DNA from: Symploca sp. SIO1C2
GTDB lineage: Bacteria > Cyanobacteriota > Cyanobacteriia > Cyanobacteriales > Coleofasciculaceae
NCBI GenBank assembly: GCA_010672925.1
Contig: JAAHFP010000021.1
Location: 1 to 64,000, forward strand
DNA length: 64,000 nucleotides
Reading direction: 5' to 3'
The translations under genes were made by a program, and so were the position numbers. A model generated the notes under the pieces. The model had not been told where the DNA came from. It ran no database searches and was given only the letters and a program-made list of their open reading frames with translations. This document shows positions 4,401-62,700 of the stretch, piece after piece (position 1 is the stretch's first letter; every line of letters starts with the position of its first letter).

Positions 4401-5014
4401 TTTTTGGCATAATCTCCCGCTTCATTTGGCATATTGAGGTGAGTGGTATCGAGCATGTTCCCAAAAGCGGTCCATTTATTCTCACACCGAACCACGAATC
4501 ACACTTTGATAGTTTGTGGATCTCCTCTTATTTGCCACCATCCCTAAGATATAGCTTCTGTTGTCTGGCCAAGCAAGAGCATTTTGAGCGGTTAACAACC
4601 CGACTATTTGCCAGTCTTGTTGGTGGCATCCCAGTTAATCGTCAAGGAGATGCCTTGCCTGCTCTCCGCACTGCTGCTAAAGCTTTATCAGCCCAACAAT
4701 CCCTCCTGATCCATCCTGAGGGAACACGGACAAGGACTGGTACACTGTTGCCTTTCCATCGCGGTCCTGCTAAATTAGCGATCGCTACTGGTGTTCCTCT
4801 GATTCCAGTCCGAATAATTGGCGCTTACGACATTTTTCCCCCCCATCGCAAGCTACCAAGTTTCTTTGACTGTAAGCGGCTTCAACGTCGTCCTCTTCAA
4901 ATTATCTTTGGCAAACCCATTTTACCACCCAAAGATGAGGAAGGATGGGCATTGGAAACCCGTCTGACCGAACAACTACGTTCAGCAGTGGAGTCTCTAG
5001 GGCTGGCGGAATAA
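1412..5014 (+). CDS. KS - degenerate AT - ACP - PlsC fusion (polyketide-synthase-like glycerolipid acyltransferase)
   Basis: The protein has 1200 residues. Residues 1-430 are a ketosynthase with active-site Cys172 (TTCSSSL), His307 (EAHAVGT, normally EAHGTGT) and His347 (NIGHLEA). Residues about 565-740 are an acyltransferase remnant: TDQGGQ replaces TGQGSQ, and GCGVG at 650-654 replaces GHSVG, so the nucleophilic Ser is Gly652. About 150 residues of the AT core are missing. An ACP follows with Ser912 in GLDSLG. Residues about 990-1200 are a PlsC-type 1-acylglycerol-3-phosphate acyltransferase with NHESHFD (His1028, Asp1033) and HPEGTRT near 1101. A hydrophobic helix precedes the PlsC motif. 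The start MESIAIIGMACRF is preceded by AAGGCAGA. Inferred role: an ACP-bound, KS-processed acyl chain is passed to a lysophosphatidate-type acceptor. Linkers at 3004-3036 and about 4010-4022 contain 'gacgcgggga'-type repeat DNA, which suggests relaxed constraint. Confidence 0.85.
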   Translation: MESIAIIGMACRFPQAKNPEEFWKLLLEGIDTISEVPSKRWDAEAIDQPTPATQGKINTRWGGFLEKVDWFDPSFFRIAPQEAKRIDPQQRLFLEIAWEALEDAGIVPEKLRGSRTGVFVGISNSDYHRLLSRELSGITPYDNVGNSFAIVANRLSYILDCQGPSIAIDTTCSSSLVAVHYACQSLQCQESNLALVGGVNLILSPEVTIGCSLAGLIAEDGHCKTFDASADGFVRGEGCGVVILKRLADAKRDGDNILAIIRGSAVNQDGLTNGLTAPNGPSQQAVMRRALENAEVAPAEISYVEAHAVGTPMGDAIEAKSLKSVLMEGRKPSQPCWIGSVKTNIGHLEAASGIAGLIKVVLQMQNKNIAPHLHLKQLNPYIRINNTPLSIPTVSQKWPDLQAPRLAGVNSFGIGGTNAHVILEEAPVRVKSEDFCERPCHIFTLSAKCEQALQDLSQRYQEFLENNSTASIADICFTTNTGRTHFEHRLAIVAESTVQLREQLKAFATGTETPGVISTNTQLRSKIVVQTDTETWGRGDAEKMNVLLLNATWNKVTSKKSPKIAFLFTDQGGQYIDMGRQLYETQSTFRQTLDLCDEILRPYLAQPLLSFLDAEPGETSPIDKPTLFSLEYALAQLWQSWGIAPDAVMGCGVGEYVAACVAGVFSLEAGLKLMVNRGSLGESSPLQLISNVTGDLATAEMGTPQYREGHRQPPVILADSMESLKNNGCQLFVEIGSRSSPWDLSRQCLPEGMGIYLPSMQQGQSPWPQLLQTLAQLYLRGVKVDWSGFDRDYPRSRLQLPTYPFQRQQYWFKTATLNPQSSTSSDQTVNTRQTPPLFSQGEKAVPTTKISPPCKKINLEPSPYPPVPASIFKRDNVESIQNWIVDWLVKKLNLEATAIDASKSLVDYGLDSLGAMELAQELENWLGHSLNPTLFWDFPTIESLARHLPSELNLPASVEKKTINNDTPSFNDNLLYGNPSEPLPPPRGIIARIAIWLFGIISRFIWHIEVSGIEHVPKSGPFILTPNHESHFDSLWISSYLPPSLRYSFCCLAKQEHFERLTTRLFASLVGGIPVNRQGDALPALRTAAKALSAQQSLLIHPEGTRTRTGTLLPFHRGPAKLAIATGVPLIPVRIIGAYDIFPPHRKLPSFFDCKRLQRRPLQIIFGKPILPPKDEEGWALETRLTEQLRSAVESLGLAE

Positions 5015-5038
5015 GTAATAAGTAATAAGTAATAAGTA
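5011..5038 (+). repeat. heptamer STRR (ataagta x4) overlapping a stop codon
   Basis: Four 7-bp units begin at the last codon and TAA stop of the KS-PlsC gene. Short tandem heptamers are a hallmark of filamentous cyanobacterial genomes. The same heptamer recurs at 6002-6018 and 6143-6187. Confidence 0.85.
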
Positions 5039-5109
5039 ATGAACAGTAGTAGGACTTCAGTTCAAAAAGAAGTCAGCAAATAGAAGTTACAGGAGTTCAT
5101 AATTGAGTA

Positions 5110-8831: not shown

Positions 8832-9218
8832 CGGAGCAGGCAATAGGCAATAGGCATTGGTGACAAGTTAAGGAAAAAGTGTCGTTGTCAAGGGAGCAGA
8901 GGAGCGGAGGAGCGGAGGAAGAAGAAGACAATTTTCCTTAACCCTTGGAATATTTCCATATATAGTTTTTTTTGAGAATCACTACGCCATATATGGGAGT
9001 TGACAAAATGCACGACCTTTTAACTTGTCACCAATGGGCAATAGGCAATAGGCAATAGGCAATAGGCAACAGACGCCGAAAAAGAAGGTTATAAACTAGT
9101 CATATCAAGGGATAGAGTAATAAGTACTGAGTACTGAAGAAATACTCCCTATTCCCCATTCCCTATTCCCCATTCCCTATTCCCCATTCCCTGTTCTCCT
9201 GTTTCCTTTATCTATGTA
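8832..9218. other. repeat-filled gap between psd and the MFS gene
   Basis: No gene is seen. It contains caatagg heptamers at about 8838-8857 and 9036-9069, a 'ggagcggaggagcgg' tract near 8900-8925, and attccct/attcccc heptamers at about 9149-9190 that end about 28 bases before the next ATG. Confidence 0.6.
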
Positions 9219-15234: not shown

Positions 15235-18048
15235 TTGAAACGAACACTTACACAGAAGCTAAAACATGTTCCAACCGGTGCACCAGATAATTCTGATGCC
15301 CTACTGAAGCTTTCTGTAGAGAAACATTCGGTTGAAACACCAATACCAACCGAAGTTAACCGTAAAGCTCGCACCTCTGCCGCCATGATTGGCTTGGCAA
15401 TTTCGATGGGTGCTTCTAGCTTATTGCTTCCCCAAAAAGGTGATAAGGCAATGGCTGTTGAGCCCATTGCTCCTGAACAAAATGTTACTAATCTTCCAGT
15501 TGAGAAGAGTACGAACGTTTCCAGTTCACCAGTAGTAGAGCCAAAAGTGGTTACTGCTGCCTCTAAGCCGTCGGTTACCGTGAAACCACAAGCGGCAGTG
15601 GACTCGAAAACTGCCCTAGCACCTGTAATTGAACATCAGGTCAAGCAAGGGGAGACTCTGTGGGAAGTATCTAAGAATTATGAGATTCAGCCACAAGCGA
15701 TCGCTGCTTCTAATAGAGTCCAACCTGATGCTACGCTTTCGGCTGGTGAGAAGCTGAAAATTCCGACAGAGAACGGCATTGTTCACCAGGTTCAAGCAGG
15801 TGAAACTGTTGAAACTATTTCTGAGTCTTACAGAGTAGAGCCAACACAGTTACAGATATCTGCATCCGTTTCAGAATCGAGTCAGCTGCCAGCAGGTGAA
15901 GCTGTCGCAGTCTCTGGCAATGTGGATGAGCTTTTAAAGGTAAGGCAAGAAGTTTCACTGAACCGATTAAAGGAGCAGCAGAACCGTTTAAGTGAAAGTT
16001 TGGCGGAGTTGAGGTCTGAGGAGAAGCAGGAGCTAGATGAACTAGTAACAGTACCTAGTTCCACTTTAGGTTTTCAATCTGAGGAAAATACACCTAGCTC
16101 TACCAAACCAACAGTTATTACAGTACCGACACCAGAAGTAGCTGTCTCACCTACTGTAGAGCGGGAAATTAACTCTCCCCAGCCTAAGGTGACATTACCT
16201 AGTGAGCCAGTAGTTATTCCAGTACCGACACCGGAAGTAGCTGTCTCACCCACTGTGGAGCCGGAAATTAACTCTCCCCAGCTAGAGTTGACAGTACCTA
16301 ATGAGCCAGTAGTTATTCCAGTACCGACACCGGAAGTGGCTGTCTCACCTACTCTAGAACGGGAAGTTACATCTCCCAAGCCAGGGGTAAGAGTACTTAA
16401 CGAGCCAGTAGTTATCCCAGTACCGACACCGGAAGTGGCTGTTTCTCCCACTGTGGAGCCGGAAATTAACTCTTCCAAGCCAGGGGTAAGAGTACTTAAC
16501 GAGCCAGTAGCTACCCCAGCACCGACACCAGAAGTAGCTGTTTCACCCACTGTGGAGCCGGAAGTTACACCTCCCAAGTCAGGAGTAAGAGTACTTAACG
16601 AGCCATTAGTTATTCCAGTACCGACACCAGAAGTGGCTGTTTCTCCCACTGTGGAGCCGGAAGTTACAGAAACCACTGATCTGGTAATTGAGCCACGAAC
16701 AATCTCAAAAATTCCTGCTGAGCCCCTAGCTCCCCAGCCAGTAGTGATGGAAACCCTGGACAGAGGAAATACCGCTACTGTCTATCAGGTTAAACCGGGA
16801 GATACAATTGAAGAGATTGCCCGTAATTACAATCTGACTTCTTCGGAACTAATCGAGGTCAATAAACTCGATAATCCTCATGTGATTCAAATTGATCAAA
16901 AGCTGAAAATTCCTCAAGTTCAGCCAGCGGATGTTCCTTCTGAAGCCGTTACGTTACTACCCGGAATTAGAACCAACCCAAACATTGGAAGTACTAGAGA
17001 ACAGCAACCAAGAATTGGGACACCTACCGTACCGAGCACATCACAAACGCTAACCAGTCCAGTCTTGGCTCAATCTATCTCTGTAGATGATGAGCCAGCA
17101 AACTCAACAAATAAGATTGAGACTGAGCAGAGTGAGTCTGATGAATCTCAGTATCCTCCCCATCTTCAAAGATTGATGGCTGAGATTGAAGAGATGCGGG
17201 CAGAGTACAAAAATCAGAGAACTGATGGTCAGGTTGTCGCACAGACGATTCAAGTGCCGGTTGCTGAAAGTTTGAACAATCAGTCTAAACCTTCCAGAAT
17301 CAATCCAGAGTTCAATCCTAACGCTTACAACGAAAGCATACAGATAAATCAGCCTGAACAGCGGTTCAATGCTATTCCTATCGCTGTACCGCCCCCTGAG
17401 TTACAGCAGCAACCGAGGCAGCAGCAACGACGGGTTACTGTACAACCGCAACGACGGACTCCTGCACAACAGCAAGCTTCTGTTTCCATTACTGTACCTC
17501 CACCAGAAAGAGCAGCTTCTAGGACACAAGAAGGATTGTTGGCAACAGCTCCTGTACCAGGGCAAATCTATAATGGGAGCCTTTACCCACAACCAGGGGA
17601 AACAGTTGCTCCTCAACTACCACCCCTGTCACCACCCGGTACTTACCTACCGGATAGTCCTGCTCGATTTAATGGTTATATCTGGCCAAGTAAAGGTGTA
17701 ATTACTTCAGGCTATGGTATGCGTTGGGGAAGGATGCACAAGGGACTTGACATCGCTGCTCCTATTGGTACACCAATTGTGGCAGCTGCACCTGGTGTAG
17801 TTGTTACTGCTGGTTGGAATAGCGGTGGCTACGGCAAGTTAGTAGAAATTCAACACCCTGATGGCAGCCAAACCCTCTATGCCCACAACAACCGCATTTT
17901 GGTAAAGCGTGGACAACAGGTTGCTCAGGGTCAACAAATTTCTGAGATGGGTAGTACTGGTTACAGCACTGGCCCCCACTTACATTTTGAAGTTCATCCC
18001 AGTGGACGTGGGGCGGTAAATCCGATGGCCTATCTACCTAGGCGTTAA
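15235..18048 (+). CDS. LysM-domain M23 metallopeptidase (cell-wall endopeptidase)
   Basis: The protein has 937 residues. A basic N-terminus is followed by one hydrophobic stretch (AAMIGLAISMGASSLLLP, about residues 45-62). LysM modules start with HQVKQGETLWEVSKNY (about 136), a weaker HQVQAGETVETI (about 184) and YQVKPGDTIEEIARNY (about 517). Six 33-residue Pro/Val/Glu-rich repeats lie between the second and third LysM. The C-terminal M23 domain has HKGLD (His835, Asp839) and HLHFE (His915, His917), the zinc ligands of peptidoglycan-cleaving enzymes such as cyanobacterial NlpD/AmiC-factor homologues. The TTG at 15235 is preferred over TTG 15232 because AGGAGG at 15223-15228 then lies 6 bases away. 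It probably binds and cuts peptidoglycan in the periplasm. Confidence 0.88.
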   Translation: MKRTLTQKLKHVPTGAPDNSDALLKLSVEKHSVETPIPTEVNRKARTSAAMIGLAISMGASSLLLPQKGDKAMAVEPIAPEQNVTNLPVEKSTNVSSSPVVEPKVVTAASKPSVTVKPQAAVDSKTALAPVIEHQVKQGETLWEVSKNYEIQPQAIAASNRVQPDATLSAGEKLKIPTENGIVHQVQAGETVETISESYRVEPTQLQISASVSESSQLPAGEAVAVSGNVDELLKVRQEVSLNRLKEQQNRLSESLAELRSEEKQELDELVTVPSSTLGFQSEENTPSSTKPTVITVPTPEVAVSPTVEREINSPQPKVTLPSEPVVIPVPTPEVAVSPTVEPEINSPQLELTVPNEPVVIPVPTPEVAVSPTLEREVTSPKPGVRVLNEPVVIPVPTPEVAVSPTVEPEINSSKPGVRVLNEPVATPAPTPEVAVSPTVEPEVTPPKSGVRVLNEPLVIPVPTPEVAVSPTVEPEVTETTDLVIEPRTISKIPAEPLAPQPVVMETLDRGNTATVYQVKPGDTIEEIARNYNLTSSELIEVNKLDNPHVIQIDQKLKIPQVQPADVPSEAVTLLPGIRTNPNIGSTREQQPRIGTPTVPSTSQTLTSPVLAQSISVDDEPANSTNKIETEQSESDESQYPPHLQRLMAEIEEMRAEYKNQRTDGQVVAQTIQVPVAESLNNQSKPSRINPEFNPNAYNESIQINQPEQRFNAIPIAVPPPELQQQPRQQQRRVTVQPQRRTPAQQQASVSITVPPPERAASRTQEGLLATAPVPGQIYNGSLYPQPGETVAPQLPPLSPPGTYLPDSPARFNGYIWPSKGVITSGYGMRWGRMHKGLDIAAPIGTPIVAAAPGVVVTAGWNSGGYGKLVEIQHPDGSQTLYAHNNRILVKRGQQVAQGQQISEMGSTGYSTGPHLHFEVHPSGRGAVNPMAYLPRR
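16108..16674 (+). repeat. 99-bp tandem coding repeats in the LysM-M23 gene
   Basis: Five complete units and a shorter sixth encode VPTPEVAVSPTVEPE plus a variable linker, 33 residues each. The copies are very similar at DNA level, so unit number probably varies between strains. The repeat also produces an artefactual 200-codon frame on the opposite strand. Confidence 0.9.
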
Positions 18049-25312: not shown

Positions 25313-25476
25313 CCTTGCCTACTGAAAATTATCATATATCTACTGTAGCAATAACACTGTGGAACCGGCTTCTAGTACAGTGGGCATGGAAATAACCCAC
25401 CAGTTCGAGTCAATAGAATCATTACTCCATAAACATTCTTAATTATTAACTATTAATTCTTAATTCCCTGAGGACC

Positions 25477-25624
25477 GGGTGAGGTGAAATTTTGGGTGGG
25501 ATTTCTTGAGCTTTGTATCCCAACATTATCAGTTCTCTCTTCTTCCTCTGCTCCTCTGCTCCTCTGCTCCTCTGCTCCTCCGCTCCTCTGCTCCTCCGCT
25601 CCCCACCCTTTTTTTCGCTCACCC
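25477..25624. mobile_element. 148-bp MITE-like element, copy A, with 9-bp target duplication
   Basis: The ends GGGTGAGG... and ...CGCTCACCC form imperfect inverted repeats. The flanks carry the direct repeat CTGAGGACC at 25468-25476 and 25625-25633. The left part (attttgggtgggatttcttgagctttgtatcc) is shared with 59078-59224 and, inverted, with 32561-32712. The core is a 'ctcctctg' minisatellite. The rest of the 25255-25618 gap shows nothing else. Confidence 0.8.
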
Positions 25625-26302
25625 CTGAGGACCTGCCCAAACGTGGTTGACTACTTGACCAAAAACCATTGGTTTGTCTTCAGCAGCCAAAGTAGTTTTA
25701 CCATTGAGAGCAACACGACCCATTGACCAATTCTCTTCACCAAATTCACCAGCACGAAAGAGGACCTGCTCTGGGTTATTTTTACTCCAGCCTAGTAGAA
25801 TGGCGTAATTGTAATTAATTCCTTCTGGTGCTATTGTACTAGAGCAATTTTGCTGACAATCCCAGACTAAAGCATAATCAGAAGCATCGGATGTGCCGAG
25901 TCGTCCTTCAAATTGCCGTGCTAAAACGCGATCGCTGGAGTTTGACCAAGAAATTGGCAGCACAATTGAGAATGCTCCTGGTAAATGAGCTTCTTCACAA
26001 CTAGCTAAAGGATTATCAGCGAAGGGAGAGGATGCTGTGATGGTGCGCAAAGCCCCAGTCTGTAAATTTTCCACGAACATCACACTAGTGATGCGGCTGC
26101 GGTGCGGTTCCGATTGCCCCTTAATCTTAATGCGACTATAGGTAGCATACTGACCATCCGGAGAAATTAATGAATGGCTGCGATAGTACCGCACCCTAAC
26201 ATGCCCATTCCTGCTAACTTCAGCCTGAGTCGCCAAAACCCAACTCCAAGGAACAGGATGGGGACTATTAAGGGGGTCAACTTGCACTCCTATTTGCATC
26301 AT
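25619..26302 (-). CDS. conserved cyanobacterial protein, beta-propeller/TolB-like, unknown role
   Basis: The protein has 227 residues. SPDGQYATYSRIKI and later ALVWDC and LGWSKNNPEQVLFR resemble blades of TolB- or WD40-type propellers, but no complete domain is seen. There is no signal peptide. The TGA stop comes from the terminal repeat of a mobile element inserted at the 3' end; the pre-insertion frame would have read about three more residues (Ile-Lys-Asn) before stopping, so the protein is almost unaltered. Two adjacent ATG codons (26300-26302, 26297-26299) are possible starts. Confidence 0.7.
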   Translation of the reverse strand: MMQIGVQVDPLNSPHPVPWSWVLATQAEVSRNGHVRVRYYRSHSLISPDGQYATYSRIKIKGQSEPHRSRITSVMFVENLQTGALRTITASSPFADNPLASCEEAHLPGAFSIVLPISWSNSSDRVLARQFEGRLGTSDASDYALVWDCQQNCSSTIAPEGINYNYAILLGWSKNNPEQVLFRAGEFGEENWSMGRVALNGKTTLAAEDKPMVFGQVVNHVWAGPQG

Positions 26303-32560: not shown

Positions 32561-32712
32561 GGGTGAGCGAAAAAAGGTGTGGGGGTGTGAGGAGCTGAGG
32601 GAGCTGAGGAAGCTGAGGGAGCTGAGGAAGCTGAGGAAGCTGGAGGACAAGAGAGAACTTATAGCTATTGGATACAAAGCTCAAGAAATCCCACCCAAAA
32701 TTTCGTTCACCC
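32561..32712. mobile_element. MITE-like element, copy B (inverted)
   Basis: It starts GGGTGAGCGAAAA and ends ACGTTCACCC-like (TTTCGTTCACCC), and carries the same 'ggatacaaagctcaagaaatcccacccaaaatttcg' block as copies at 25477 and 59078, in reverse. The core here is a 9-bp 'gctgaggaa/gctgaggga' minisatellite rather than 'ctcctctg'. No target duplication is visible; a 'ggaggca' heptamer tract abuts the left end. Confidence 0.7.
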
Positions 32713-43852: not shown

Positions 43853-44052
43853 GTGAGTTATACCAAATCCGGTTCTCATATCAGGGGAAAAATAATTCAC
43901 AGTCTCCCATGGAAGCAAAAGCAAAGTATCCTCTGGCTTCCCCCTTATTAAGCAGGGCTAATTCATTGTGATGAGAGAAAATTAGGACAGCCAGAAAAAG
44001 TGCGTAAACTATCGATTGAACGAATATGTGAAACTCTCTCACTTCTCCAGGA

Positions 44053-44626
44053 ATGAAAACCAATCTTCTTGATACTTTAGCTCAACTCCCAGATTGTCGT
44101 GCTCCCAGAGGAAAACGCTATCCCTTATGGTTAATTTTGCTGCTGGTGATTATGGCAACGATGAGTGATTGCTATGGTTATCGAGCCTTGGAAGATTTTG
44201 CTCGTCGTCATCACCAAGCCTTGCGGGAAAGTTTAGAGTTACCACCAGTGGGTTTTCCCTCAGACTCGACTTTTCGCAGAGTAATGATGAGTATTGATTT
44301 TACTCAATTAGCCCAAGTTTTGACGAACTGGATTAGGGATAGGATGCCAACCCAAGAGGGTGATTGGCTAGGAGTTGATGGCAAGAGTATCAAAGGAACA
44401 TTGAATAATTATGCTCAAGCTTATCAAGACTTCGTTTCAGTAGTTTCTGTATGAAGATCGCTCCAGAATACAATTGGGTAATGCTCCTGCTAATCTCTCA
44501 ATGATTCGTAGTTTAGTCATGGCCATTTTACGCTACCATGGCTACTCTTCTATGACCACAGCAATTCGGTCGATTGCTCATGATCTAGAGAAGATTTTGC
44601 TGCTAATTGGGACTCAAAAGAGCTAG
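44053..44626 (+). pseudogene. ISAs1-family transposase, internally deleted
   Basis: The 5' part encodes 133 residues (LAQLPDCRAPRGKRYPLW, SDSTFRRVMMSIDF, WLGVDGKSIKGT with the first catalytic Asp) and then stops. A second piece in another frame encodes the C-terminal LGNAPANLSMIRSLV, AILRYHGYSSMTTAIRS and ends TAG 44624-44626. The middle of the DDE domain (roughly 150-200 residues) is missing, so no active transposase can be made. Confidence 0.85.
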
Positions 44627-44676
44627 CGAGCGCTCTCACGGGCGAACCCAAGCAATCGCTTTCTCTTGGATGAGCT

Positions 44677-44945
44677 ATGGCGGCTTTTGAGGTTAGCGAT
44701 CAGCGATCGCACAACCAGTCGGAGTCATGGCAGCTTTTGAGGTTAGCGATCGCACAACCAGTCGGAGTCATGGCAGCTTTTGAGGTTAGTGATCGCACAA
44801 CCAGTCGGAGTCATGGCAGCTTTTGAGGTTAGTGATCGCACAACCAGTCGGAGTCATGGCAGCTTTCGAGGTTAGCGATCGCACAACCAGTCGGAGCTAT
44901 GGCAGCTTTTGAGGTTAGCGATCGCACAACCAGTCGGAGCTATGG
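44677..44945 (+). repeat. 43-bp tandem minisatellite containing HIP1
   Basis: Units beginning 'atggcagcttttgaggtta' start at 44677, 44727, 44770, 44813, 44856, 44899 and 44942. Spacing is 43 bases except 50 for the first, which has a 7-base duplication. Most units hold gcgatcgc or gtgatcgc. No unique spacers exist, so this is not CRISPR. After the inverted repeat, 45061-45125 is a cctgcct/ctgcctt heptamer tract. Confidence 0.9.
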
Positions 44946-45132
44946 CTGATTTGTCCGAGAGTTCCACATATTCGTTCAATCGATAGTTTACGCACTTTTT
45001 CTGGCTGTCCTAATTTTCTCTCATCACAATGAATTAGCCCTGCTCCAAGGAGGGGTTAGGGGTGGGTTTCTGCCTCCTGCCTCCTGCCTCCTGCCTCCTG
45101 CCTTCTGCCTTCTGCCTTCTGCCTTCCAAGCA

Positions 45133-46218: not shown

Positions 46219-49200
46219 ATGGTAGAGCCTTTAACAACTTTGGGAGTTTCTGTCCTGGGAAGTTTGGTATTGAAAGAGATTCTACCGGAGTTAGGCAAAG
46301 GAGCACTGGAAGATTACGTTAAAGACTTCTTCAAGGATTTTATTAAAGGTAAGATTCCCTCAGCTAACAATAGCGTTTTGCAACAGGCGCTGGGTAAAAC
46401 TCTACAGCAGTTTGTAAAATTAATCGAATTGGAGTTGGAATATAAATGTGACCTTTCTGGTGCAGAAATTAGAGACAATTACCAAGTCAGAATTAAGGGA
46501 TTTCTTAAGAATGAGCAGGTTAAATCCCTGTTGGGGAGTGCTTTTGGCTATGATTACCATGAAATAAATGGTAAACAATTGGCCTTAATCTGGAGACAGC
46601 ATTATCCCCCAGCAATGCCAGCTGGTTTTAATTGGCATCGGGTTGCGACTAAATATGTGGAAGTAGTTAAAGATTTAATTAAGCAGTTACCGGAATTGAG
46701 GGAAATTCTGGAATTAGAAACACTGCAAGTGGTAGCGGAGCAGACTCAAGCAATTGCTGGTATTCCTACAGATTTTAACCTGGCAGCTTATCAAGAAGGA
46801 CTTAAAGAGCGCTATGCTAATCTCAATTTAGATAGTTTGGATGCTAGTGTCTATGACTATCGGGAAAAACTGAAGGTCTGGCAGGTATTTGTACCACAGT
46901 ATGTGCGGCAATGTCAGGAATTTTTACCCCAAGTTTACGAAATTCCTAAGGAACATCAAAGACAATTACGGCAGAGTGATCAACTAGAGGCAGAAGTTGA
47001 CCCAGCAGCTTGGGAACGGTATAAAGAGATTTATTATCAGCAGCCCATCAGACAGATTTTGGAGGTGGTTAGTGAAATCTGGTCTGATGACAGCTATCGG
47101 TATCTGGTAATTTTGGGAGACCCGGGTTCCGGTAAGTCCATGTTATTGCAATATTTGGCATTGAACTGGGCTAGGAGTCCTCTGGATAATGCCATTGAAT
47201 TGCGGATTCCTCTGTTAATTGAACTGCGGACTTATATTCTTGACCGCAATACTGGAGGGTGCAAGGATTTATTAGACTTTTTGGACAAGGGTAATGTGAT
47301 CTGTCGCCTCAATCCCCATCGACTCCAAGAAAGATTAAAAGCGGGTAAGGTTTTGGTGATGTTTGATGGCTTGGATGAGGTATTTGAGCCTAGGCAACGG
47401 GAAAAGGTAATTACCGATATCCATCGGTTTACTAATGAGTATCCCAAAGTTCGGGTAATCGTCACTTCTCGCATTATTGGTTACAAACCTCAACGGCTGC
47501 GAGATGCTGAATTTCGTCACTTCCTGCTGCAAGATTTAGACTCAAGGCAAATTCAGGACTTTATCCACCGTTGGCATCAGTTAACTTTTACCGATGAGGC
47601 TGATAAACTGAGAAAGCGGGAGCGTTTACAGCGGGCTATCGATACCTCGAAAGCGATTAGGGAGTTAGCAGAAAATCCCCTGTTGCTGACCATGATGGCC
47701 ATACTTAATCGTAATCAAGAATTACCCAGAGACCGACCGGAACTTTATCTCCAAGCCTCGCGAGTATTGCTGCATCAATGGGATGTAGAGCAAAAACTGT
47801 TAGCCGACCCCCAGCTAAATGCGGTAACTATCGATTATAAGGATAAGCAAGCGATGCTGCGGCAGATTGCCTACTTTATGCAAGGAGCAGATAAGGGTTT
47901 GGCAGGTAATCTGATTCGGGGGAATAATTTAGAAGGGCTTCTCTTTGACTATATAGAAAGTCTCAAAGTCGGCAATGCCAGAACCATTGCTCGGTTACTG
48001 ATTGAACAACTGCGGAGTCGCAATTTTATTTTATGCTTTCTGGGGGGAGATGTTTATGCTTTTGTCCATCGGACATTTTTAGAATATTTCTGTGCTTGGG
48101 AATATGTCTGGCAGTTTCAACAGACGCAAACCCTCTCTATTGAACAATTGAAAACCGAAGTATTTGGTAAGCATTGGCAGGATGAGTCTTGGCAGGAAGT
48201 CCTACAGCTGATAGCTGGGATGATTGATGCCAAGTTTGTGGGGCAAATTATTGAATACCTGATAGAGCAGAAAATCGATAAGCGAGATTTTCTTGATAAA
48301 TATAGACGATTGAAAGCTGAAGGAGTAAAAAAGCTGCTCTTAGCAGCCAACTGCCTTGGGGAAGTAAGAAACAAAAATGCGATTGTTCCGATTTCTACTC
48401 GACTGCAAGCATTGCTTATCAAAGAGCTGGAACAAGAATATCCTTATAAATTCGATGCTGAAGCGGCTAGTGTAATTGTGAATGCGATCGCTACAGTTTG
48501 GCAAGATGCTCCACAAATGTTGAAGTGGCTGAAATCCTGTGTTCAGCTTGATAATCTAAGTTCTTTTATACCAGAATCTGCTGTCAAAGCGATCGCTCAA
48601 CATTGGAAAGATGACCCTGATACTTTACCCTTGCTCAAACAATGGGCGCAATCTGATAACAATAGTAATGTGCGACAAGCGGCAGTGCGAGAATTAGCCA
48701 AGGGTTGGAAGGATGAGCCGGATACTTTACCCCTAATCCAACAACGGGCACAATCTGATGACAATTGGCTTGTGCGACAAGCGGCAGTACAAGAAATAGC
48801 TCGTGGCTGGAAAGATGAACCGGATACCTTACCCCTGCTTAAACAATGGGTGCAATTTGATAAATATAGGGTTGTGCAATATGCAGCAGTCGAAGCATTA
48901 GCCAAAGGCTGGAAAGATGACCCCGAAACCTTAACCCTAATCAAACAACGAGCCCAATCTAATAAACATTCGGGTGCGCGACGTGCAGCAGTCGAAGCAT
49001 TAGCCAAAGGCTGGAAAGATGACCCTGAAACCTTACCCCTGCTCAAACAACGGGCACAATCTGATGAGGATATGTGGGTGCGACGTGCAGCAGTCGAAGC
49101 ATTAGCCAAGGACTGGAAAGATGACCCCGAAACCTTAGCCCTAATCAAACAACAAGTCCAATCTGATGAGGATAGTTGGGTGCGACGTGCAGCAGTCGAA

Positions 49201-50772
49201 GCATTAGCTAAGGGCTGGAAAGATGACCCCGAAACCTTAGCCCTAATCAAACAACAAGTCCAATCTGATGAGGATAGTTGGGTGCGACGTGCAGCAGTCG
49301 AAGCATTAGCCAACGGCTGGAGGGATAAACCGGATACCTTACCCTTGCTCAAACAATGGGTGCAATCTCATGAAAATATTGAGGTACGACAAGCTGCCGT
49401 GGAAGAAATCGCCCGTGGCTGGAAGGATGAGCCTGATACTTTACCCTTGCTCAAACAATGGGCGCAATCTCATGAAAATATTGAGGTACGACAAGCTGCC
49501 GTGGAAGAAATCGCCCGTGGCTGGAAGGATAAGCCTGATACTTTACCCTTGCTCAAACAATGGACGCAATCTGATAAAGACTGGGCTGTGCAACGTGCAG
49601 CAGTTCGAGAATTAGCCAAAGGCTGGAAAGATGACTCTGAAACCTTAACCCTAATCAAACAACGAGCACAATCTGATAACAATAGTAATGTGCGACGTGC
49701 AGCAGTGGAAGCATTAGCCAAGGGCTGGAAAAATGACCCTAAAACCTTAACCTTAATCAAACAATGGGCACAATCTGATGAAAATAGTGATGTGCGATGC
49801 GCAGCAGTAAGAGAATTAGCTAAGGTTTGGAAAGATGACCCTGATACCTTAACCCTAATCAAACAACGAGCTCAATCTGATGAAAATAGCAATGTACGAT
49901 GTGTAGCAGTGGAAGAAATCGCCCGTGGCTGGAAGGATGAACCCGATACCTTACCCCTGCTCAAACAACGTATTCAATTGAAAGAACATCCATATGTACT
50001 AGAAGCAGCAGTGGAAGAAATCGCCCGTGGCTGGAAGGATGAACCCGATACCTTACCCTGGTTAAAACAACGTATTCAATTGAAAGAGTATTGGTTTGTA
50101 CGAGGAACTGCTATACAAGAGTTAGCTAAAGGATGGAAAAATGAACCTGAGACCTTACCCCTGGTGAAATTTTATGCTCAGTATGATAATCATTGGTTGG
50201 TACGAGGAGTAGCGATGACAACTTTAGCTGAAAGATGGAAAGATGATCCTGATACTTTACCTCTTCTCCAACAATGCGCTCAATCTGACGATAATAAGTT
50301 TGTGCGACGTGAAGCAGTGCAACAACTAGCCAAGGGATGGAAAGATAATCCTGAAATTGTCAATTGGCTCAAAAATTTGGCAGTGACTGATAATTCCTTA
50401 GATATAGAGCAAGCAACCATCGAAGAGTTAACCAAAGACTGGACAGAAACTCAACAAGCTATACCCTGGTTCAAATCCCTTGCTCAACTAGATGATGATT
50501 GGTTCATGCGACAATTAGCAATAGAATATTTAGCTCAAAATTGGCAAGATGAGCCTTGGATGTTAGAGTTTTTAAGCGATCGCGTACTCAATGACCCCTT
50601 TAAGCGGCAAAGTAAGTGGGAAGACAACCCTCGGCAAGTCGCCCTTGAGCTCATCATCAAGCACTATCCCAACCATCCTGATATTCTACCCCTGTTACAG
50701 GACAGAGCCGAAAATGACTCGGATGAAAAAATGAGGAAATTTGCGAAGAGGAATTTAGATTTTAGATTTTAG
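46219..50772 (+). CDS. NACHT NTPase with C-terminal HEAT-like repeats (bacterial NLR-like)
   Basis: The protein has 1517 residues. The N-terminal 120 residues are helical and may be the effector or adaptor (ILPELGKGALEDYVKDFF). The NACHT module has Walker A GDPGSGKS (300-307), Walker B VMFDGLDE (380-387), VIVTSRIIGY, LAENPLLLTMMA and FVHRTFLEYFCAWEY. From about residue 794 to 1440 come about 20 HEAT-like repeats of 34 residues with the pattern GWKDDPETLPLLKQ...VRRAAVEALAK. This is the plan of STAND/NLR-like defence proteins: sensor repeats, switch NTPase, effector. It would act in the cytosol, perhaps against phage. The start ATG follows a heptamer repeat. No protease or nuclease effector domain is recognised. 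Confidence 0.88.
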   Translation: MVEPLTTLGVSVLGSLVLKEILPELGKGALEDYVKDFFKDFIKGKIPSANNSVLQQALGKTLQQFVKLIELELEYKCDLSGAEIRDNYQVRIKGFLKNEQVKSLLGSAFGYDYHEINGKQLALIWRQHYPPAMPAGFNWHRVATKYVEVVKDLIKQLPELREILELETLQVVAEQTQAIAGIPTDFNLAAYQEGLKERYANLNLDSLDASVYDYREKLKVWQVFVPQYVRQCQEFLPQVYEIPKEHQRQLRQSDQLEAEVDPAAWERYKEIYYQQPIRQILEVVSEIWSDDSYRYLVILGDPGSGKSMLLQYLALNWARSPLDNAIELRIPLLIELRTYILDRNTGGCKDLLDFLDKGNVICRLNPHRLQERLKAGKVLVMFDGLDEVFEPRQREKVITDIHRFTNEYPKVRVIVTSRIIGYKPQRLRDAEFRHFLLQDLDSRQIQDFIHRWHQLTFTDEADKLRKRERLQRAIDTSKAIRELAENPLLLTMMAILNRNQELPRDRPELYLQASRVLLHQWDVEQKLLADPQLNAVTIDYKDKQAMLRQIAYFMQGADKGLAGNLIRGNNLEGLLFDYIESLKVGNARTIARLLIEQLRSRNFILCFLGGDVYAFVHRTFLEYFCAWEYVWQFQQTQTLSIEQLKTEVFGKHWQDESWQEVLQLIAGMIDAKFVGQIIEYLIEQKIDKRDFLDKYRRLKAEGVKKLLLAANCLGEVRNKNAIVPISTRLQALLIKELEQEYPYKFDAEAASVIVNAIATVWQDAPQMLKWLKSCVQLDNLSSFIPESAVKAIAQHWKDDPDTLPLLKQWAQSDNNSNVRQAAVRELAKGWKDEPDTLPLIQQRAQSDDNWLVRQAAVQEIARGWKDEPDTLPLLKQWVQFDKYRVVQYAAVEALAKGWKDDPETLTLIKQRAQSNKHSGARRAAVEALAKGWKDDPETLPLLKQRAQSDEDMWVRRAAVEALAKDWKDDPETLALIKQQVQSDEDSWVRRAAVEALAKGWKDDPETLALIKQQVQSDEDSWVRRAAVEALANGWRDKPDTLPLLKQWVQSHENIEVRQAAVEEIARGWKDEPDTLPLLKQWAQSHENIEVRQAAVEEIARGWKDKPDTLPLLKQWTQSDKDWAVQRAAVRELAKGWKDDSETLTLIKQRAQSDNNSNVRRAAVEALAKGWKNDPKTLTLIKQWAQSDENSDVRCAAVRELAKVWKDDPDTLTLIKQRAQSDENSNVRCVAVEEIARGWKDEPDTLPLLKQRIQLKEHPYVLEAAVEEIARGWKDEPDTLPWLKQRIQLKEYWFVRGTAIQELAKGWKNEPETLPLVKFYAQYDNHWLVRGVAMTTLAERWKDDPDTLPLLQQCAQSDDNKFVRREAVQQLAKGWKDNPEIVNWLKNLAVTDNSLDIEQATIEELTKDWTETQQAIPWFKSLAQLDDDWFMRQLAIEYLAQNWQDEPWMLEFLSDRVLNDPFKRQSKWEDNPRQVALELIIKHYPNHPDILPLLQDRAENDSDEKMRKFAKRNLDFRF
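48601..50340 (+). repeat. 102-bp tandem coding repeats of the NACHT gene
   Basis: About 17 clear units of 102 bp. Neighbouring units at about 49110-49211 and 49212-49313 are almost identical, as are those at about 49363-49464 and 49465-49566, which points to recent unit duplication. Minus-strand frames at 48597-49352 and 49470-49862 are artefacts of the repeat. Confidence 0.9.
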
Positions 50773-58817: not shown

Positions 58818-58860
58818 ACAGAGGTCATTGGTGTCAACTTAACCTGAAAAGCGCTTGAAT

Positions 58861-59022
58861 CTGGGGGAGCTGAGGGAGTTGAGGGAGTTGAGGAAGCTGA
58901 GGGAGTTGAGGAAGCTGAGGGAGCTGAGGGGGCTGAGGGGGCTGGGGGAGCTGAGGGGGCTGAGGGGGCTGGGGGAGCTGAGGGAGCTGAGGGAGTTGAG
59001 GAAGCTGAGGGGGCTGGGGGAG
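58861..59022. repeat. 9-bp minisatellite (gctgaggga/gctgaggaa)
   Basis: About 18 units of nine bases directly upstream of the HlyD gene. The same unit forms the core of the mobile element copy at 32561-32712. Nine bases keep frame, so it opens long meaningless frames on both strands. Confidence 0.9.
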
Positions 59023-59077
59023 CTTGAGAATGCTCCTGTCGCTGACTCTTTCTTCTGTTAATCAGGTAGGGTAAGGC

Positions 59078-59224
59078 GGGTGAACGAAATTTTGGGTGGG
59101 ATTTCTTGAGCTTTGTATCCAAAAATTATCAGTTCTCCCTTCTTCCTCCGCTCCTCCGCTCCTCTGCTCCTCTGCTCCTCTGCTCCTCTGCTCCTCCACT
59201 CCCCACCCTTTTTTTCGCTCACCC
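59078..59224. mobile_element. 147-bp MITE-like element, copy C, with perfect 9-bp target duplication
   Basis: GGGTGAACGAAATTTTGGG at the left and CCCTTTTTTTCGCTCACCC at the right form inverted ends. GGGTAAGGC occurs immediately outside both ends (59069-59077 and 59225-59233). The core is a ctcctctg/ctcctccg minisatellite as in copy A. Confidence 0.85.
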
Positions 59225-59767
59225 GGGTAAGGCTACCGGCTCAGTTGAAGTAGAACTTCTCTGGCACTATTAATTGGCAATGGTTGTGACTTAAGTTGAC
59301 ACCAATATACATCGGCGCACCCCTACAATCAAAAATGCTAATCAGATAAAATAAATACTGTTTGAAGGCAACGATCGCTCTTTTTCCCTATTCCCTTGAG
59401 CGAGAAAAGCGATCGCCTACTGTAATAACGGTATGATTTACGGCAGACTCTCTTGACTTCTCTGAGTCAGGAAGGGTAGTGAGATACTTTGGCAAGATAT
59501 CTAGTGTAGCTTGATTGGGAATAGGGAATGGGAAGTTGTACAATCCTTGGTGGAATCTAGTAATACCCTCAATAGTAGGTTGGGTTGTGGTTTTTCTCTA
59601 GTAGTTTAGGCATTTCTACTGATTTGATTCTATGCTTTTAATATCTGTGGCATATTCTTTATCTAGTGAGCTACTGCCTATTTTCTGGCTTTTGACAACT
59701 GGTTTGTGATTTTTGCTCAGGAGATTCAAAAGACGTTTGGCTGTAAGGAGGACTAAGGGAGCAGGGA
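59225..59767. other. intergenic region upstream of the FAAL-PKS gene
   Basis: No gene is supported. A HIP1 site lies near 59409. AAGGGAG at 59755-59761 is a plausible ribosome site, six to seven bases before the ATG at 59768. The promoter of the PKS gene should lie here. Confidence 0.45.
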
Positions 59768-62700
59768 ATGACCGATAGTTTTGATTACTTGAACGGGTAC
59801 AAGCACCAATTTTCGACTTTAGTAGACCTGCTGCGTTACCGATCACTACACCAACCTGACCGCATTGCTTATACTTTTTTGCCGGATGGGGAAACATCAG
59901 GCATAAGCTTAACTTATCAAGAATTAGATCAAAAAGCACGAGGGATTGCCGCTGTACTTCAGCAGCAAGGGTCTACTGGTGAGCGAGCGTTGCTGCTCTA
60001 TCCACCAGGTTTGGAGTTCGTTACTGCCTTCTTTGGCTGTTTGTATGCAGGAGTTATTGCCGTCCCGGTATACCCACCCAAACGTAACTATCACAGTAAT
60101 CGATTACAAGGAATTGTCACTGATGCCCAAGCAACAATTGTCCTCACAACTACATCGATTCTGAGCAATTTTGATCAAACATTACCAGAAAATCTCACAT
60201 TAGCCACGTTGTGCTGCATTGTTACGGACGAGATTGACAGTAACCAAGGTAATGATTGGCAACCTTTGTCAATAGAAACTGAGACTTTGGCATTCCTGCA
60301 ATACACTTCCGGTTCCACAGGAACACCAAAAGGGGTGATGGTTTCTCATGGGAACCTGCTGCACAATTTATCTTTGATCCACAGGTGTTTTGAGCATACA
60401 CCCAACAGTCGGGGTGTCATTTGGCTGCCATTATACCACGATATGGGGTTAATTGGTGGGGTGCTACAGCCAATTTACGGTGGTTTTCCTGTGACCTTAA
60501 TGCCTCCGGTAGCTTTTCTCCAAAAACCTATACGCTGGCTGCAAGCAATTTCCCGCGACAAAGCAACTACCAGTGGTGGACCTAATTTTGCCTATGAATT
60601 TTGTGTTAATAAAATCAAGCCAGAACAACTAGCAGAACTTGACTTGAGCAGTTGGGAAGTCGCTTTTACTGGTGCTGAACCTATCCGTATGCAAACACTA
60701 GAGCGGTTTGCTCAAACTTTTGCTGATTGTGGTTTTCGTAAACAGGCATTTTACCCCTGCTATGGTATGGCAGAAACTACCTTATTAGTATCTGGAGGGC
60801 TAAAAGCTAAAGCGCCAATTATTCAATTTGTTGATAGCAATGAACTATTACAAAATAGAGTTGTTTCTACCATTGATACTCATAGAGATTCCCAGGAAAT
60901 TGTCGGTTGCGGTAGTAGTTGCTTGGATCAAAAAGTAGCCATTGTCAACCCTGAATCTTTAACTGAGTGTAACAACACAGAAGTTGGAGAGATTTGGGTT
61001 TCTGGAGAAAGTGTCGCCCAGGGTTATTGGAGGCGGATAGAGCAAACCGAGCAAACCTTTCGGGCTCGTTTAGCAGATACCGGAGAAGGGCCTTTTCTGC
61101 GCACGGGAGATCTGGGATTTGTACTGGATGGTGAGCTGTTTGTTACGGGGCGCATCAAGGATGTGATGATTATCCGGGGACAAAACCATTATCCCCAGGA
61201 TATTGAGCTGACGGTTCAAAAGAGCCACCCGGCACTGCGATTTGATTGTGGTGCAGCATTTACTGTAGAGTTCCAAGGTTCAGAACGACTAGTAATTGCC
61301 CAAGAGGTTGAGCGGCGTTATCTGCGGAAGTTAAAAGTAGATGAAGTAATTGGAGCTATTCGTCAAGAAATAGTTCAAGAACATGCTCTACAACCTTTTG
61401 CCATTCTGCTACTTAAGACCAACAGTATCCCCAAAACCTCCAGTGGTAAGATTCAACGCTATGCCTGTAGAGCTGGTTTTAGAGAAAATAGTTTAGATGT
61501 AGTCGGAGAATGGAGAGAAGTTCAACAAACAACCACCAACCACCAACCACCAACCACCAACCACCAACCAACAACCACCAACCAACAACCAACAACAACT
61601 ATTCAAACCTGGTTAATCAAACAAATAGCTGAACAGTTGGGTTTAGAACCTCAGGAAATCGATATTCGGGAACCTTTTGCCCGCTATGGCTTAGATTCGG
61701 TGGCAGCGGTAAGGCTTTCAGGAGAGCTAGAAGAATGGTTAGGACGGAAGTTGGCTCCCACTTTAGCCTATGATTACCCTACTATTGAAGCTCTGGCTCG
61801 TCATCTAAGTAAGGAAGCTCTTGTAGAACCAACTAACTCTATTGAAAGAGGACAACAAAATACTAACAGGGCTAAGACTTCTGATGAATTGATTGCCATT
61901 GTTGGTATCGGCTGCCGTTTGCCGGGAGCTAAAAACCTACAAGCCTTCTGGCAGCTTTTGCGCAATGGAGTGGATGCGATTACAGAAGTACCTGCCAATC
62001 GCTGGTACCAAGAAGCTAAACAACCAATCCCCAAGTGGGGTGGTTTTCTCGAACAAGTAGATCAGTTCGACCCCCAGTTTTTCGGGATTACTCCCAGAGA
62101 GGCTCAGAGTATGGATCCCCAGCAGCGGCTGCTAATGGAGGTTAGCTGGGAAGCGTTAGAAAATGCAGGAATTGCTCCTGAGAAGTTGGCTGGTAGTAGA
62201 ACAGGGGTATTTATTGGTATTAGCAACTATGATTATTCCCGGCTACAGTTCCCCGATGACCCCTATTCTGGTACAGGTAATGCCCTAAGTATTGCCGCTA
62301 ACCGCCTGTCCTATCTCCTAGATTTACGGGGACCTAGTTGGTCTGTAGATACAGCTTGCTCCTCATCTTTAGTGGCAGTTCACCAAGCGACACAGAGTCT
62401 GCAACAGGGAGAATGCCATTTAGCCCTGGCAGGTGGGGTCAATCTGATGTTGTCCCCTGAGTTGAGCATAACCTTTGCCCAAGCAGGTATGATGGCAGCA
62501 GATGGTCGCTGTAAGACTTTTAGTGACAATGCTGATGGTTATGTACGGGGAGAAGGCTGTGGTATAGTCGTCCTTAAGCGTCTTTCTGATGCCCTCAGAG
62601 AAGGAGACAATGTACTAGCTCTGATCAAAGGCACAGCAGTAAATCAGGATGGTCGCAGCAATGGACTTACTGCTCCCAATGGACCAGCCCAGCAAGCTGT

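Follow-up and report, generated by a model that had tools for sequence, protein, structure and literature searches.

A tandem-array-bearing MITE family in Symploca sp. SIO1C2 with a right end like those of ISKra4-family insertion sequences

The STRR heptamer arrays of heterocystous cyanobacteria are free arrays of 7-mers. In Porphyromonas gingivalis, a tandem array is instead part of a MITE, BrickBuilt, which combines small inverted ends with a leader, a tail and, between them, a tandem minisatellite of 23-nt units, and which occurs in 19 copies (PMC4596501). Nezha is described as an active cyanobacterial MITE (Zhou et al. 2008, as cited in PMC10969869). In the superfamily that includes ISKra4, inverted repeats measure 18–39 bp and direct repeats 8 or 9 bp (PMC3942029), and a 1917-base insertion described as 'ISKra4 family transposase, hypothetical protein' differs between two Tolypothrix strains (PMC9679502).

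We analysed a 64,000-nucleotide stretch of the Symploca sp. SIO1C2 draft genome (hereafter the window), in which a sequence-only reading had placed a 147-base repeat, copy C, between two perfect 9-bp duplications and had grouped it with another copy, A. This repeat belongs to a genuine MITE, a small non-autonomous transposon with at least about 100 copies in the genome. It is very probably moved by a cognate ISKra4-family transposase that makes 9-bp staggered cuts, with an internal array that changes by slippage or recombination.

Copies in the window and an empty insertion site

The duplications reported around copy C are exact, and copies A and C do belong to one element family, of which the window in fact contains three copies. 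The 23-mer noted in the earlier reading occurs at 25498 (+), 32670 (−) and 59098 (+), compared with no occurrence in 100 shuffles. The features are as follows.

59078-59224, + strand: MITE copy C, 147 bp, between perfect GGGTAAGGC duplications
59069-59077, unstranded: left 9-bp target duplication of copy C, GGGTAAGGC, from sequence reading
59225-59233, unstranded: right 9-bp target duplication of copy C, GGGTAAGGC, from sequence reading
59078-59101, + strand: left terminal repeat of copy C, GGGTGAACGAAATTTTGGGTGGGA, 18/24 against the right terminal repeat
59201-59224, − strand: right terminal repeat of copy C, reading inward GGGTGAGCGAAAAAAAGGGTGGGG, 24/24 against the ISKra4-family IS end of Symploca sp. 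SIO2E9
59144-59202, + strand: internal tandem array of copy C, 8-bp unit TCCTCTGC/TCCTCCGC, from tandem-repeat reading
58826-59307, + strand: outer dispersed element hosting copy C, inverted ends ATTGGTGTCAACTTAA / TTAAGTTGACACCAAT
25468-25633, + strand: copy A with its CTGAGGACC duplications (element 25477-25624, 148 bp; duplication perfect)
32561-32712, − strand: copy B, 152 bp, 9-bp-unit array, without target duplication

Copy C begins GGGTGAACGAAA and finishes TTTCGCTCACCC, and no transposase gene lies inside its 147 bp, about 40% of which is simple array. The earlier description of this copy was right about its duplications and omitted two features, the variable-length internal array and the mobile element that hosts it. 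The right flank of copy B is a (CCTGCCT)n array.

The host of copy C has perfect 16-bp inverted ends at 58827-58842 and 59291-59306. The joined flanks of copy C, used as a query, gave dozens of matches to this outer dispersed element, and at least five of these run uninterrupted across the insertion point of copy C. The empty site is known because these uninterrupted copies have a single GGGTAAGGC. The outer element is a second, unrelated MITE family with ends CATTGGTGTCAACTTAA, about 180–230 bp long in most uninterrupted copies. It has dozens of matches in the genome and was read at window positions 58826-59307 and at loci L281, L286, L287, L288, L293 and L298; among 13 pairs of ends, 6 have a 9-bp duplication with at most one mismatch. 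Copies of the 147-bp family at C1:427578 and C167:81560 also lie within outer-element copies, at nearby points. Together with the site of copy C (59069-59077), these are three independent insertions within about 15 bp in second-family copies, which suggests a preferred target for the MITE within the second family.

The window also holds other repeats. An ISAs1-family remnant at 43960-45040 has long inverted ends (CAGGGCTAATTCATT...) and a broken transposase, and its interior carries 5.7 repeats of a 43-bp unit at 44702-44946. Free 7-bp tandem arrays with differing units are numerous (e.g. 405-436, 5010-5040, 9146-9196, 45068-45126 and 61523-61596). Two long tandem arrays, with repeat lengths of 99 and 102 bp, occupy 16113-16666 and 48604-50169; these lengths are multiples of three, and the arrays probably encode repeat proteins.

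Target duplications across the draft genome and its relatives

Copies were gathered from the draft genome (8.67 Mb, 245 contigs) by sequence search and from specified regions. A 27-mer of the left end, with up to three mismatches, occurs 112 times, compared with none for the reversed control, and the right end TTTTTTTCGCTCACCC has 58 exact occurrences. A search with copy C itself listed 53 matches in this genome, including one of 100% identity over 147 bp. In the fetched loci 76 left ends could be read, of which 60 are accompanied by a right end and 16 are not. Elements range in length from 102 to 405 bp.

Collecting flanks genome-wide, as the sequence-only reading had proposed, bears out its claim of a MITE family with 9-bp target duplications. 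The duplication is perfect in 43 of the 60 complete copies and has one mismatch in a further 7; two copies have an 8-bp duplication and none of the 60 has one longer than 9 bp. When flanks were re-paired at random, a mean of 1.05 copies had a duplication with at most one mismatch, although the right end was taken as the best candidate within 650 bp, which slightly favours a duplication match and has no equivalent in the shuffles. Copies without duplications, the outcome named beforehand as refuting, number no more than about 10 among the 60, and repeat arrays themselves form some of the flanks concerned. Position 9 of the duplication is G or C in 35 of the 43 perfect cases. In one nested insertion, a MITE copy lies within the right end of another and TTTTTTCGC is duplicated. 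The family is thus short and multi-copy, with inverted ends matching at 18/24 positions, a target duplication of constant length and no transposase gene, and its ends are common to autonomous elements, the closest ISs matching 23–24/24 on the right and 17–18/24 on the left.

Insertion upstream of sigma-A promoters is a trait of some members of the ISKra4 group only. In this family, the mean number of mismatches to a promoter-like site beside the two ends (5.48 and 5.43) did not differ from that of the control (5.35).

The 27-mer left end is present in 5 of 37 relatives, belonging to only two genera. In the genome grouping used, SIO1C2 falls into one genus with SIO2C1 and SIO2E6. With a looser 22-mer, the matches listed include contigs of the Symploca genomes SIO2C1, SIO2E6, SIO2E9 and SIO3C6, as well as Nostoc linckia, N. 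spongiaeforme, Desmonostoc, Calothrix and Xenococcus. Among these matches most copies have a 9-bp duplication; those of Xenococcus are decayed, with two mismatches in the duplication or none found. The left end gave no real match in plasmid and viral collections.

A candidate helper of the ISKra4 family

No helper had been seen in the window by the sequence-only reading, and none was seen here; the SIO1C2 assembly likewise yielded no ISKra4 transposase, either with the NF033572 profile or with the L209 protein as query. No autonomous copy emerged when ends lying on either side of long inserts were paired in the fetched loci. In MITE-carrying genomes, NF033572 (ISKra4) identified two loci with GGGTGAGCGAAAAAA ends, L209 and L215, neither of which has a target duplication. 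Both are ISKra4-family copies (L209:1075-2354 and L215:1186-2278) that have suffered internal deletion or breakage and retain the two ends. A second ORF lies downstream in each; it is about 139 aa long in L209 and broken in L215, and was assigned to no family. In structure, the two loci stand between an IS and a MITE.

An IS with GGGTGA-type ends, of the kind that the earlier reading had proposed to look for, does exist and belongs to the ISKra4 family. The L209 protein, used as a query over 388 genomes of the order, led to an intact relative, L236, in a genome of the same family. L236 is 1932 bp long, is flanked by the 9-bp duplication GTTATTGGG, and has perfect 24-bp ends, GGGTGAGCGAAAAAAAGCGTGGGG, that match the MITE right end at 23/24 positions. 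It has ORFs of 429 and 138 aa, the first of which, the transposase, scores 281.7 bits against NF033572 (cut-off 205); its score above the NCBIfam cut-off, inverted repeats within 18–39 bp and duplication within 8–9 bp are those of ISKra4. The transposase of another locus, L238, scores 313 bits against the same profile and cut-off. The second ORF of the IS had no family match in profile comparison. In the copy-rich Symploca sp. SIO2E9, an IS end, GGGTGAGCGAAAAAAAGGGTGGGG, is identical to the MITE right end (24/24). Two contigs of this genome (C248 and C375), which represent different sites, stop inside this one IS at the same base, likely because a multi-copy ISKra4-family IS was collapsed in assembly.

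These ends point to an ISKra4-family insertion sequence as the helper type, and mobilisation of the MITE in trans would follow from recognition of both of its 24-bp ends by the transposase, a Mutator-like DDE enzyme. Insertion would proceed by 9-bp staggered cuts, with host repair producing the 9-bp duplications, and the cognate IS supplying the transposase may have been lost from the SIO1C2 genome or may lie unassembled there. The MITE retains conserved modules of about 58 bp on the left and about 27 bp on the right, and the array of 8- or 9-bp units that separates them may expand and contract by slippage or recombination to give lengths of 102–405 bp. Several observations weigh against this reading. 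The SIO1C2 assembly yielded no ISKra4 transposase, and agreement between the MITE left end and the IS ends is limited to 16–18/24 positions. L236 was the one intact helper copy found to combine such ends with a duplication, L209 and L215 have the same ends but lack duplications, and 16 of the 76 MITE left ends have no right end.

A different IS family that makes 9-bp duplications (IS1, ISAs1 or another DDE_Tnp_1 family) could instead move the MITE, the likeness to ISKra4 ends being incidental. Duplications of 8–10 bp are also made by ISAs1, IS1 and some IS4/IS5 groups, and an ISAs1 remnant is present in the window itself. However, the right end matches ISKra4-family ends at 23–24/24 positions and both the MITE and the IS have 9-bp duplications, which makes this explanation improbable. 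The ISAs1, IS1 and DDE_Tnp_1 loci of related genomes were each considered as helpers, and their boundaries lack GGGTGA-type ends. It is similarly improbable that the element was once mobile, is now immobile in this genome and is retained as a functional sequence such as a promoter, terminator or RNA. The lack of a helper in the SIO1C2 assembly agrees with such a history, but many copies have perfect duplications and near-identical modules, which indicates recent movement. Less credible still is a reading without a transposon, in which a tandem-array hotspot or recombination gave rise to the repeat and its direct repeats are leftovers of array recombination: arrays of 7–9-mers are common in the genome outside the MITE, and several of the 16 left ends without a right end pass from the array directly into other sequence, but the duplications are exactly 9 bp, vary between sites and are placed around conserved terminal sequences, and their length and the empty sites contradict it. 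We therefore retain a MITE moved by an ISKra4-family transposase as the preferred reading; a repeat abundant in cyanobacteria (Nostoc, Desmonostoc, Calothrix, Xenococcus and Symploca) would thereby be tied to a specific transposase family.

The internal array and comparison with known systems

In SIO1C2 the MITE carries an array of either an 8-bp unit, CTCCTCTG, or a 9-bp unit, CTTCCTCAG, and the spread in element length arises because this array varies. The array type follows the variant of the left module, with TTATCAG mostly accompanied by 8-bp units, and AATAGCTATAAG and TTATAAG mostly by 9-bp units. Related elements each hold an array of 8- or 9-bp units in the corresponding internal place, and the units are specific to the lineage: about ACACTCCCC (9 bp) in Nostoc, Desmonostoc, Calothrix and Xenococcus, and mostly CTCCGCGT (8 bp) in Symploca SIO2E6, SIO2E9 and SIO3C6. 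Moreover, the 9-bp arrays of this family share their unit (CTGAGGGAG/GAGCTGAGG) with the array of the second, unrelated MITE family. Arrays may therefore move between families by recombination or conversion. Tandem repeats can spread as transposon cargo, and we tentatively raise the possibility that MITEs carry minisatellites around cyanobacterial genomes, seeding and exchanging them; if true, this would explain where the many short tandem arrays long noted in cyanobacteria come from.

A literature search on the terminal sequences of the MITE returned no relevant paper, and the papers returned for ISKra4 together with MITE appear to concern other subjects; most subscription journals lay outside the search, and this absence is weak evidence of novelty.

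A MITE that carries a minisatellite has a precedent in BrickBuilt, the nearest published structure found. In both, a tandem minisatellite lies between a leader, a tail and small inverted ends. However, the BrickBuilt unit is 23 nt and the element is present in 19 copies, whereas the family described here has units of 8–9 nt that differ between lineages, more than 100 left ends and a candidate ISKra4-type helper. Nezha, as described in the cited work, is likewise a cyanobacterial MITE. The STRR arrays resemble those described here in being short-unit tandem arrays dispersed between genes, but they are free arrays of 7-mers, whereas the 8–9-mer arrays here lie inside a transposon. The Tolypothrix insertion resembles the helper IS in its layout. 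Like the MITE, the ISKra4-family IS (p-MULT 4; PMC3942029) has 24-bp ends that begin with GGG and is flanked by 9-bp duplications; in contrast, the IS encodes a transposase and a 138-aa second ORF, whereas the MITE encodes nothing and retains the ends only.
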